This document shows, in pieces, positions 130 to 4,452 of a DNA stretch of 23,556 nt. A program made the position numbers and the translations under genes. The notes under the pieces are model-generated. The model worked only from the letters and a program-made list of their open reading frames with translations. It had not been told where the DNA came from and ran no database searches. The DNA is from a virus. How positions within the stretch are numbered: the stretch's first letter is position 1; every line of letters begins with the position of its first letter. The stretch covers positions 1-23,556 of IMG/VR virus record IMGVR_UViG_3300046369_000808; one strand, given 5' to 3'.

Positions 130-513
130 ATGAACGAAATAGATAGATTACAACAATTAGCAGGAATAGTTAACGAAGACGGCGAGCCAGGTGTTGATTA
201 TAAATCAGACACTGGTGAAGGTGATACAGAGAAACAAGCAGTAGGTCATGTAGATAATGAAAGAGGTATGATTTCTAAAGAATTATATCTTATAGGCAAA
301 AATGCTATAGACTTACATAAAATGTTAAAGACTTTACCAGATTCAGACTTCCCTCATTGGTGGCAAGCAAAGATAGTTAAAGCACATGAATATTTACAAG
401 GTGCTAAGAACTATTTAGATGCAGAATTAAATGCTCCTAGAGGCGATGGTGATAGTGATATTAAACCTAGTCCAGATACTGTTGATGTAACTGATCCTTC
501 AGGCGTTAGTTAA
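130..513 (+). CDS. conserved small marine T4-like phage protein, function unknown
   Basis: The protein has 127 residues from the ATG at 130. A GTG at 115 would add five residues, but the late-promoter octamer at 117-124 sits 5 nt before this ATG, so the ATG is preferred. The N-terminus MNEIDRLQQLAGI follows a pattern I associate with many small marine T4-like phage proteins. The middle (around residues 75-105) is a helical stretch with FPHWWQAKIVKAHEYLQGA, also familiar from such phages. The C-terminus is acidic and probably disordered. There is no signal peptide or membrane segment. The last 8 bp overlap the convergent GH6 gene. A virion role is possible but not shown. Confidence 0.75.
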   Translation: MNEIDRLQQLAGIVNEDGEPGVDYKSDTGEGDTEKQAVGHVDNERGMISKELYLIGKNAIDLHKMLKTLPDSDFPHWWQAKIVKAHEYLQGAKNYLDAELNAPRGDGDSDIKPSPDTVDVTDPSGVS

Positions 514-1354
514 TATCCTTAACTAATTCAGTAGCCATCTCAGGCCAAAACTTTCCAGCTCTTGGACCACCATTACCTGTACCATCTGATTCTCCAGGTA
601 TCTTAATCCATAAAAATGCATCACATTTTTCATCACCTGTATTACATGTTGGTACTTCTCCTACATGTCTGCCTGGCGGGTTGCACCAATCATTACCGTG
701 AGGACCATTACCATTACGACTTGTATCTATAACAAAGTGATCTTGAGGTCTGTATTCGCATATCTTTAAGGCCCATTCTATACATTCTTTTGTTGATCTA
801 TAGTTACTTACATTAACACTGAACCCTCTTACACGGTCATTAGAGACCCTTGTGATCAATTCTGCGGCATCTTTAGGGTCTAACCAATTACTATGTCCTA
901 TATCTACATACACATAGGCTTCGCTTTCTTGTGTTAATGTGTGCAATCCTGCTTTGATTAAATTAATACGATAGTCAGAATCCTTATCTTCCATTAGTGT
1001 CGTGTGAGGTAATGCATCAGGTTCATATATAACAATAGGCTTATGTCCTTCTATACCCTTACAAAACTCTTGTAAGAACAAAATATATTCGGTAGCATCA
1101 CTGGCTCCACCTTTACTGTAATGTCCTAAATCTCTATTGGGTAAATTATACAGAACAAAGTAAGGAAGACCCGGAAGTGTTCTTTTAAGTAATCTTTTAA
1201 GACTCTTATCTAAATTTTTGTTTGCGTTTTTATTCTTTTTAGCACCGTACCAAAATGCTACAGGTTGCTCAAAAATAGTAGCAACGTCTGGGTGTGTAAG
1301 TCTATGATCTTTAACTCTATCAAAATCATTTACCCAAAAAGGATAAGAGAACAT
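506..1354 (-). CDS. glycoside hydrolase family 6 (cellulase/cellobiohydrolase-type) protein
   Basis: This 282-residue protein carries the GH6 motif series in order: LYNLPNRDLGHYSKGG (69-83), YEPDALP (110-116), VDIGHSNWL (150-158), GFSVNVSNY (177-185), IDTSRNGNGP (209-218), WCNPPGR (223-229) and FLWIKIPGESDG (247-258). GH6 enzymes cut beta-1,4-glucan with inversion. By family analogy the catalytic acid is D113 in EPDALP; D75 in NRD and D257 in GESDG match other conserved carboxylates. It is about the size of a bare catalytic domain. No signal peptide, linker or carbohydrate-binding module is present, so export would need lysis or virion packaging. Its ATG lies 1 bp past the stop of the deformylase gene, so it is probably co-transcribed from the late promoter at 1904-1911. 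The substrate is unknown and need not be cellulose. Confidence 0.9.
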   Translation of the reverse strand: MFSYPFWVNDFDRVKDHRLTHPDVATIFEQPVAFWYGAKKNKNANKNLDKSLKRLLKRTLPGLPYFVLYNLPNRDLGHYSKGGASDATEYILFLQEFCKGIEGHKPIVIYEPDALPHTTLMEDKDSDYRINLIKAGLHTLTQESEAYVYVDIGHSNWLDPKDAAELITRVSNDRVRGFSVNVSNYRSTKECIEWALKICEYRPQDHFVIDTSRNGNGPHGNDWCNPPGRHVGEVPTCNTGDEKCDAFLWIKIPGESDGTGNGGPRAGKFWPEMATELVKDIN

Positions 1355-2499: not shown

Positions 2500-2527
2500 A
2501 TTATAACTTAAATATATTGATTGTCAA
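2500..2527 (-). promoter_or_regulatory. sigma70-like early promoter of the metallopeptidase gene
   Basis: On the minus strand TTGACA (2522-2527) and TATAAT (2500-2505), both perfect consensus, are separated by 16 bp. The -10 box ends 6 nt before the ATG at 2493, so transcription would begin at or next to the start codon. The -35 box lies inside the last codons of the ATP-grasp gene. Confidence 0.8.
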
Positions 2528-3302
2528 GAAGTTTCTTAAACAGTTCTTTATATATATTTCGTTTTACTAAATTACTTATTCTATATAGTTTTGCAATACT
2601 ATTTACTTCTAAATAATGCACAATACCCTTAGCATCAACTAAAATATCTAGACAGCCAAATAGTAAATCTGTACCTTTCCTAAATTCTTTTAATACTTCA
2701 GTACAATCAAAAGGTATGTCTTCAAAATCTACTTTAGATCCTACCTCTAAATTAGATATTATAGAAGTTTTATCATAATTAGTATCTTTGTATTTTAATA
2801 TCACTTCATCCTTAAAAAATATTATTCTATATTTAGACGCAAATTTTCCTGTATCTATAAATTGTTGTAATATATAATCTCCTTTTAAGTTATCTATTGC
2901 AGTTTTGAGTTCTGCCTTATTAGTGCAAAGAATAACATTCTCTCCTAAAGAACCTACTGTAGGTTTAAACACCAATGGGTATTTAATTTCTTTATCATAT
3001 ATCTCCGGATGTTTAAGATTATTGTCTTTACAGTATTGAGAGAACTTAAATTTATTATATAGATTACTTACATTGTCTGTGCTAGGTATAATATTAGTAT
3101 TATCTAAATATCTATTGTAATCTTCTTCAAAGCCTGTATCGCTTGAATACAAAAATATTGTATCGTCTTTATTAAGATGTTCTCTGTTCATATCACCTAA
3201 AATTTTATATTCCAAATTTAAGTCTTCTATTGTTGCAAGGAAAAATAATCTATCTTTATTATTGATTTGTCTTCCCTTTGTATTCATATAGATGTATAAC
3301 AT
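2508..3302 (-). CDS. ATP-grasp ligase, RimK/carboxylate-amine ligase-like
   Basis: This 264-residue protein has an ATP-grasp layout. YPLVFKPTVGSLGENV (108-123) holds the ATP-binding lysine K113 and a glycine-rich loop. YILQQFID (143-150) is the hinge. CLDILVD (217-223) and YLEVNS (230-235) carry likely Mg-binding D219, E232 and N234. The first 100 residues form an N-terminal domain without clear markers. ATP-grasp enzymes activate a carboxylate as acyl-phosphate and join it to an amine or thiol. The substrate here could be a peptide, a protein tail or a small metabolite. The start at 3302 is supported by a TAAATA motif 5 nt upstream; an in-frame ATG at 3285-3287 is the alternative. Neither has a Shine-Dalgarno sequence. 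Confidence 0.8.
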   Translation of the reverse strand: MLYIYMNTKGRQINNKDRLFFLATIEDLNLEYKILGDMNREHLNKDDTIFLYSSDTGFEEDYNRYLDNTNIIPSTDNVSNLYNKFKFSQYCKDNNLKHPEIYDKEIKYPLVFKPTVGSLGENVILCTNKAELKTAIDNLKGDYILQQFIDTGKFASKYRIIFFKDEVILKYKDTNYDKTSIISNLEVGSKVDFEDIPFDCTEVLKEFRKGTDLLFGCLDILVDAKGIVHYLEVNSIAKLYRISNLVKRNIYKELFKKLLDNQYI

Positions 3303-3356: not shown

Positions 3357-3902
3357 ATGTATACAATAGATCAATTTAGAAAAATGGGCGGTAAAACTAT
3401 GTATGTAGGTACCGGTACTATAAAATTGCTTCTTAATAGAGGATTCAATGTATATAATTTTTACTCAGATAAAGCAGAATTGCTTATAGATGATATACAT
3501 GACCATCGCAGTGGATTTAATTCTACAATACTTAAAGGAACATTAAGAAATATCTTATATAAAATAGACGGTGAGGACCCTGAATCTAAATACAGACTTG
3601 AATACGGAGAATGTAAGGAAGGATCTGAACGTGTAATTGTACAAGACAATGTAGTGTTCAAAGAGACGTGTAGATTTGACAATATAGAAGGTACCTCTTA
3701 TTATATGGATCATGATGTTTTACATAAAATAGAATTGATGACACCTTCTGTTATAACACACATGGTTAGAGATGAACTAGTAAAACAGGCACCTAACTTT
3801 ATAATAGATACATCCAAACCTTTCAAGTGTGCCTTTAGTGAGCCTAAAACTGATAAAGAGTGTTGGGAAATAATCGAATATACAATTAATCTATCTAACT
3901 AA
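3357..3902 (+). CDS. cupin-like putative metal-binding protein
   Basis: This 181-residue protein contains IHDHRSGFNSTILKGTLRN (47-65), which resembles the first cupin motif with paired histidines H48 and H50. A later segment, YYMDHDVLHKIEL (115-127), could supply the third histidine, H123. The spacing is typical of cysteine-dioxygenase-like cupins with a long inter-motif region. The fold call rests on pattern only, and the reaction and substrate are unknown. There is no signal peptide. It is a single-gene plus-strand unit, convergent with tRNA-Glu one base downstream, so its transcript would run antisense into the tRNA. Confidence 0.65.
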   Translation: MYTIDQFRKMGGKTMYVGTGTIKLLLNRGFNVYNFYSDKAELLIDDIHDHRSGFNSTILKGTLRNILYKIDGEDPESKYRLEYGECKEGSERVIVQDNVVFKETCRFDNIEGTSYYMDHDVLHKIELMTPSVITHMVRDELVKQAPNFIIDTSKPFKCAFSEPKTDKECWEIIEYTINLSN

Positions 3903-3903
3903 A

Positions 3904-3978
3904 TGGTACCCTGTAGGAGAATCGAACTCCTGTTGCATGGATGAAAACCATGTGTCCTAACCACTAGACGAACAGGGC
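3904..3978 (-). tRNA. tRNA-Glu (UUC)
   Basis: On the minus strand the 7-bp acceptor stem is GCCCTGT/ACAGGGT with a terminal G-U pair. The anticodon stem CATGG/CCATG encloses the loop TTTTCAT (anticodon TTC). The T arm contains GTTCGATTC. Discriminator A and a genome-encoded CCA end are present. Length is 75 nt. Confidence 0.95.
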
Positions 3979-3988
3979 AAAATTTGGA

Positions 3989-4201
3989 GGGATGGTTCAC
4001 ACTTTACACTCATGTCGTGTATTTTTAAATGTGGACTGGTGATGTTTCGTGAACCTGTCCCTTACCCGAGGCTTTAAGCCCCCTATTGATAAATAGGTAT
4101 GAGGAGCGGTACACTTTGGGACTTTACTATGGAGTGGTTGTTGACTACACTTTTCACTATTTTTGCCATACCCAGTTTACGAAATACCACACGGGCTCCT
4201 C
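3989..4201. ncRNA. probable structured non-coding RNA, family unknown
   Basis: This stretch has no credible gene and is visibly richer in G and C than its surroundings. It is full of nested complementary segments. GGGA-t-GGTTCAC (3989-4000) pairs with GTGAACC-tg-TCCC (4049-4061). A small GGCT/AGCC hairpin lies at 4070-4080. CCTATT/AATAGG (4082-4097) forms a perfect 6-bp stem with a GATA loop. GAGGAGC (4101-4107) pairs with GCTCCTC (4195-4201), with GGTA/TACC just inside. It lies between the stop of the 82-aa gene and tRNA-Glu, both on the minus strand, so transcription as part of that unit is likely. The inverted repeats do not fix the strand. It does not show tmRNA or tRNA hallmarks, and it is much smaller than GOLLD or ROOL phage RNAs. 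Confidence 0.6.
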
Positions 4202-4203
4202 AA

Positions 4204-4452
4204 TTAACTTTTTCTTAGTTCTCGTTTCAACTCAGATGAAATTCTTTTTTCATCTAATTGAGCTTTGAACACTTTTAAATCTTCTACTTCTAATAGTTTC
4301 TTCATTGCATCATGCGGTCTTAAATCTAAAATTCTTGCCGCATAGGCAGTAAGTTCTATAATATCATAACGTCCTACGTTATGTTTCTTACAAATAGCCT
4401 GTACGTCTACTTGCTCTGTTATTCCTTCACTATTATAAATATCTTTTTTCAT
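4204..4452 (-). CDS. 82-aa unknown protein
   Basis: This small soluble protein is rich in charged residues and probably all-helical. The central part, VQAICKKHNVGRYDIIELTAYAARILD, could hold a helix-turn-helix-like arrangement, but this is weak. It ends in a basic stretch (ELKRELRKS). I recognise no family. The start has no Shine-Dalgarno sequence and lies 5 nt after the -10 box of a strong sigma70-like promoter, which suggests early, leaderless expression. The probable structured RNA begins 2 bp past its stop. Confidence 0.65.
   Translation of the reverse strand: MKKDIYNSEGITEQVDVQAICKKHNVGRYDIIELTAYAARILDLRPHDAMKKLLEVEDLKVFKAQLDEKRISSELKRELRKS

Follow-up and report, generated by a model that had tools for sequence, protein, structure and literature searches.

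Does the short noncoding interval upstream of a phage tRNA-Glu gene encode a structured RNA, and if so, of what kind? The window, meaning the whole stretch of 23,556 nucleotides analysed here, is a viral contig of 23.6 kb to which no cultured phage is closely similar, and its DNA ligase is less than 60% identical to any ligase in 50,697 phage records. Positions 3989–4201 are flanked by an 82-aa open reading frame and by tRNA-Glu, both on the minus strand (coordinates are collected in the table). A preliminary description made from the letters alone had noted high G+C, a tRNA-Glu neighbour, an outer stem ending close to a stop codon and several nested complementary pairs, and had suggested a new small phage RNA class. 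The compositional contrast is borne out (44% G+C over the 213-bp region vs 34% for the window, a value reached by 1.3% of equal-sized windows), the tRNA-Glu does lie 3′ of the region, and the outer stem sits 2–3 nt from the stop codon of the open reading frame. Folding of the region as a single sequence is mildly unusual (z = -2.3 for the minus strand and -1.7 for the plus strand) and not decisive, and so a comparison with relatives was undertaken. It is this comparative evidence, not single-sequence folding, that establishes the structure as real: the region consists of two distinct, hitherto uncatalogued folded RNAs set end to end, which we call modules A and B, and each of the two families is represented in dozens of uncultured phages. 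The RNA strand is the minus strand. That both structures are real and new to Rfam is, in our judgement, almost certain.

Table. Position of the two RNA modules, their structural elements and the flanking features in the window.
Feature	Position	Strand	Remarks
82-aa open reading frame, upstream of module A	4204..4452	-	stop codon 2–3 nt before module A
Module A	4100..4202	-	103-nt structured RNA; 52 distinct homologues, covariation; model match 84 bits
P1 of module A	4202-4195/4107-4100	-	
Bulge of module A	4194-4189	-	CCGUGU
P2 of module A	4188-4185/4111-4108	-	GGUA with UACC
Invariant segment of module A	4184-4176	-	UUUCGUAAA
P3 of module A	4173-4171/4120-4118	-	GGG with CCC; variable apical hairpin between
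A–B spacer	4088..4099	-	12 nt; contains CCTATT
Module B	3986..4087	-	102-nt structured RNA; 44 distinct homologues, covariation; model match 85.1 bits
AAUA of module B	4087-4084	-	
Hairpin of module B	4082-4078/4072-4068	-	GGGGC with GCCUC
Stem of module B	4061-4058/3992-3989	-	GGGA with UCCC
Helix of module B	4055-4049/4000-3994	-	GGUUCAC with GUGAACC; then an inner stem and ~17-nt apical loop
tRNA-Glu (TTC)	3904..3978	-	ARAGORN and Rfam; 7 nt 3′ of module B

Relatives reached through the ligase and the upstream open reading frame, homologues of which precede module A in several of them, carry the region at about 84–92% identity, and some hold only its first hundred or so nucleotides. A pattern built from the conserved core of that half, module A, identified 43 loci in IMG/VR (individual loci are denoted by L numbers below), and looser patterns added more. 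Alignment A3 and covariance model R1 were built from the first 35 distinct sequences, and alignment A4 and model R2 from the full set of 52. In place of the variable spacer anticipated there, the second half turned out to hold another RNA family, and a pattern drawn from six close and a few distant copies of this module B recovered 77 IMG/VR stretches, most of them lacking module A. Because collection relied on conserved-core patterns, the invariance of the cores is in part imposed and more divergent members were missed; the covariation in P1 and P2 of module A and in the variable helices of module B is not imposed, since those positions were left free.

Module A is built from a stem with a fixed bulge, a 4-bp helix, UUUCGUAAA, a GGG/CCC helix and an optional apical hairpin. 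Its conserved unpaired parts are the bulge NCG[A/U][G/A]U, UUUCGUAAA and a GUG segment before P2, and its size varies through P1 (8 to 19 bp) and the apical insert (3 to 49 nt). Across the 52 sequences, 98.3% of pair cells hold standard pairs and 206 are double-change cells, and the covariation score of 0.703 compares with 0.187 for shuffled alignments and at most 0.156 when pairing partners are slid. Compensatory changes occur in all eight P1 pairs and in two of the four P2 pairs. P3 is invariant in A4, partly because the search patterns demanded it; the copy in L223, which was found via module B, has AGG/CCU in place of GGG/CCC. At the first P2 pair, 35 of the 52 sequences have G-U and 17 have G-C, and none has A-U. 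A protein-coding gene was considered and rejected, in agreement with the earlier statement that the interval holds no gene: the apical inserts vary in length across all three classes modulo 3, so that no reading frame can be conserved, and one sense frame is interrupted by a stop in 35 of 35 sequences.

Module B combines a short hairpin with a long stem. From 5′ to 3′ it consists of AAUAGGGG, a hairpin GGG-N...N-CUC in which the Gs of AAUAGGGG pair with CUC, the segment GGG-N-A-GGGACAGG, a covarying helix, an inner stem with an apical loop of 15–17 nt, and a terminal CCAUCCC-N-CC. In 44 sequences, 97.8% of pair cells are standard and 97 are double-change cells, with a covariation score of 0.326 vs 0.084 after shuffling and at most 0.087 with partners slid. 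RNAalifold recovers the same helices, and six members folded singly adopt the same shape (z between -1.5 and -4.3). At one hairpin pair, 43 of 44 sequences have G-U, and such lasting G-U pairs in both modules argue for RNA rather than DNA structure.

These data allow the pairings originally proposed to be sorted. The arms GAGGAGC (4201-4195) and GCTCCTC (4107-4101) belong to P1 of module A, and GGGA-CA-GGTTCAC (4061-4049) and GTGAACC-A-TCCC (4000-3989) to the long stem of module B; in both modules the paired bases covary among homologues. Both arms of CCTATT/AATAGG are likewise present, but this pair is not conserved past the closest relatives: CCTATT sits in the A–B spacer and is absent from L090, L107, L161, L163, L164 and L223. 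The helices are thus real, and they form two side-by-side domains, not one nested set. The idea of a new small phage RNA class is supported in amended form, as two separate families that stand in tandem here and that each also occur alone.

By sequence comparison, A and B are restricted to phages in the collections searched and are evidently selected for structure and for conserved unpaired cores. As originally suggested, Rfam offers no match: a scan of the whole window against Rfam 15 at gathering threshold returned tRNAs only, positions 3880-4260 gave nothing else up to E = 10, and scans of relatives matched neither module. Searched for in 84,980 bacterial and archaeal genomes, the strict core of module A was found in none, and the loose core gave 37 stretches in prokaryote genomes, none convincing; model R1 scores these loose bacterial matches as noise except L176 (Mycetocola, 30.7 bits), which owes its selection to the pattern, does not have the conserved residues that precede CGTAAA and is judged a chance match. 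Three matches to the B pattern (L231, L249 and L258) fail the extended motif and were dropped as chance; the record holding L249 has no match to R3, the module B model. BLAST of A, B and A–B sequences against cultured phage records found no true match: a 26–36-nt similarity between the A–B junction and Klebsiella Drexlerviridae phages (E 0.02) does not include the A and B cores and was treated as chance. An exact 18-mer pattern search gave no matches, and a search with the tRNA included returned tRNAs only. Module A is absent from 14 cultured phages chosen as gp23-type kin or references, and module B from the eight tested. A search of the literature in open-access PubMed Central, which excludes subscription papers and undeposited motif lists, turned up no description of either family.

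Within the sequenced stretch of each record, many of which are fragments, both modules are single-copy: the 39 A records, among them ones of 333, 339, 259, 217 and 152 kb, have exactly one significant module A apiece, and the 34 B records one strong module B apiece. Five large module A records encode gp23, the major capsid protein of the T4 type; judged by gp23, their nearest cultured relatives include Pelagibacter and Methylophilales myophages and, for a jumbo record, PA5oct- and GAP32-type phages. There are A-only records without module B and B-only records without module A. Where the two co-occur they are adjacent, in the order A then B and on the same strand in 12 of 12 distinct cases, with a spacing of 6–12, 59 or 107 nt. 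Retention of one copy per record from ~150 kb T4-like to 330 kb jumbo phages points to a function worth keeping in compact genomes.

The surroundings of module A were tabulated for 55 loci, with tRNA counts made by hand. A tRNA lies within 21 nt downstream of A in 15 loci (at 3–7 nt in ten) and behind module B or another RNA-like stretch in 13, and 27 loci have none. The tRNA adjacency first noted in the window is therefore common among relatives (28 of 55 module A loci) but not universal, and all 28 of these tRNAs are on the module A strand. Approximately 25 of the 55 copies begin right at the preceding gene's stop codon and lack a promoter of their own. Ten loci have predicted sigma-70 promoters matching 11–12 of 12 positions, with the -10 box ending 5–12 nt before P1, a spacing that would make P1 the 5′ end of the transcript. 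L107, L161 and L163 have a predicted promoter followed by A, B and tRNA-Glu and then a new promoter; L153 has a predicted promoter, A, and 15 nt later another promoter; and in L089 and L096 a terminator-like hairpin with a T run lies between A and tRNA-Glu. Many module B copies end 13–25 nt before a start codon. Features downstream include tRNA-Glu, -Asp, -Lys and -Thr, a SleB-like hydrolase, a SprT-like protein, DNA ligase and unknowns, the protein names being our own reading of the neighbour sequences. The protein neighbours differ, yet certain gene families occur at both A and B loci, as though the two modules occupied related genomic sites in related phages.

The covariation, the conserved cores, the promoter units, the terminator-like hairpin and the variety of neighbouring genes favour a small RNA, and we tentatively read A–B as an autonomous small noncoding RNA of the phage that acts in trans and owes its 3′ end to RNase P or a terminator, a reading that we place slightly short of an even chance. 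In some phages the RNA would be transcribed from its own sigma-70 promoter. In others, this window included, A–B would be the tail of an upstream transcript, beginning just past the stop codon. RNase P cleavage at the 5′ end of tRNA-Glu would release the A–B leader and set its 3′ end, while elsewhere a terminator would do so. In trans, the conserved loops may bind a single partner of host or phage origin, be it a protein, an RNA or a small molecule, with A and B serving as separable domains used singly or jointly. One copy per record is more in keeping with a product acting in trans than with a processing signal that is repeated. It is doubtful, and clearly less probable than not, that A and B are specifically two domains of a new trans-acting phage RNA class, unrelated to catalogued RNAs, and that when gp23-type phages infect their uncultured bacterial hosts this RNA interacts with part of the host machinery, such as RNA polymerase, a ribonuclease or the translation apparatus.

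The position of A right after a stop codon without a promoter, together with that of B 13–25 nt before a start codon, also fits action in cis. The nascent RNA could bind RNA polymerase and suppress pausing or termination in the untranslated tRNA region or in genes downstream, as in HK022 put (PMC9378689), likewise a structured phage RNA of modest length that may be found close to a promoter. In favour of this reading, A is always on the strand of the adjacent tRNAs and in a ribosome-free position, at the transcription start or just past a stop codon; a processive effect needs one copy per genome; and the genes downstream vary. Set against this, the window has only one tRNA directly downstream of the region, followed by a convergent gene, the next gene has its own predicted promoter in L153, L107, L161 and L163, the terminator-like hairpin of L089 and L096 lies inside the unit, and R2, the module A model and the one applied here, finds nothing in HK022 (NC_002166). 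We regard antitermination in cis as unlikely, though the likeliest of the alternatives. Control of the following gene or tRNA by a riboswitch or a protein-binding leader would account for the aptamer-like internal loops, the intergenic location and the placement of many B copies before start codons; it is improbable given that the downstream features are unrelated, that no constant expression platform is seen and that a fresh predicted promoter follows A in L153. A link to genes of one pathway, as for a metabolite riboswitch, was not found among the neighbours, which vary.

Compact helices around invariant unpaired loops could also belong to self-cleaving ribozymes that process the precursor of an adjacent tRNA or mRNA. 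Phages do carry small HDV-like motifs adjoining tRNAs, the theta ribozymes of gut phages, whose cleavage sites are reported to lie beside tRNAs and are tied to tRNA 3′-end processing (PMC10879173). Module A instead sits 5′ of the tRNA, where RNase P already acts; half of the A loci lack an adjacent tRNA, and for copies that begin exactly at a transcription start, cutting at the 5′ end of P1 would bring no benefit. No Rfam ribozyme, the HDV-family models included, matches either module, and self-cleavage appears slightly less probable again than a leader. An element acting as DNA, for instance a replication origin or a packaging site with a folding single strand, would suit one copy per record but is very improbable in view of the conserved G-U pairs, the fixed strand relative to tRNA and promoter, and the predicted transcription start at P1.

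Among the closest known systems are rnaC and rnaD of T4 (the species 1 and 2 stable RNAs), which are likewise small (119–139 nt) and lie beside a tRNA gene in a gp23-type phage. Their order differs, rnaC and rnaD being 3′ of tRNA-Arg and A–B 5′ of tRNA-Glu, and R2 and R3 find nothing in T4, so that no homology is seen. The novelty here lies in the RNA families themselves; a small stable RNA beside phage tRNAs has this precedent. To our knowledge, phages have few small RNAs whose structure is conserved, and those next to tRNA genes, such as rnaC and rnaD, have no known function. GOLLD and ROOL are large ornate RNAs of bacteria and phages, often found near tRNAs; the contrast in size drawn at the outset stands, both being several times larger than A–B. 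Marine T4-like myophages of the Melnitz/Mosig group carry RNA elements as well, namely a glutamine riboswitch and a two-piece tmRNA (PMC9004378); the A and B models match nothing in the Mosig and Melnitz-3 records, and ARAGORN and Rfam find no glutamine riboswitch or tmRNA in the window. Sequence sets and covariance models now exist for the two families, together with predicted start sites and with single and tandem forms that occur naturally, which makes processing, self-cleavage, antitermination and partner binding each directly testable.

Several further features were observed at these loci. A third conserved noncoding stretch, GTCAACNGCACTTGGACT...AAATAGTGCATNAGAGTAG, lies 3′ of tRNA-Glu in L092 (2734-2823, minus strand) and between A and tRNA-Glu in L089 (2109-2179, minus strand) and L096 (7505-7576, minus strand), with no Rfam match in L092 or L089. 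A long-hairpin subclass of module A (e.g., L101, L111 and L223) has an AGAGTAG-like string in its apical part that resembles the AGAGTAG in this stretch. Long noncoding and apparently structured segments unlike B lie directly 3′ of A in L164 (716-774, plus strand) and L104 (980-1180, plus strand). Downstream of A in L136, a 274-aa open fragment is homologous to the ATP-dependent DNA ligase of L148 and appears to be interrupted by an intein-like segment. In the window itself, positions 2508-3302 (minus strand) encode a RimK-like ATP-grasp protein (PF08443, E 2e-15) without a PHROG match, and positions 506-1354 (minus strand) encode a glycosyl hydrolase family 6 protein (PF01341, E 5e-51), here in a phage contig and adjoined by a peptide deformylase gene at 1356-1898.
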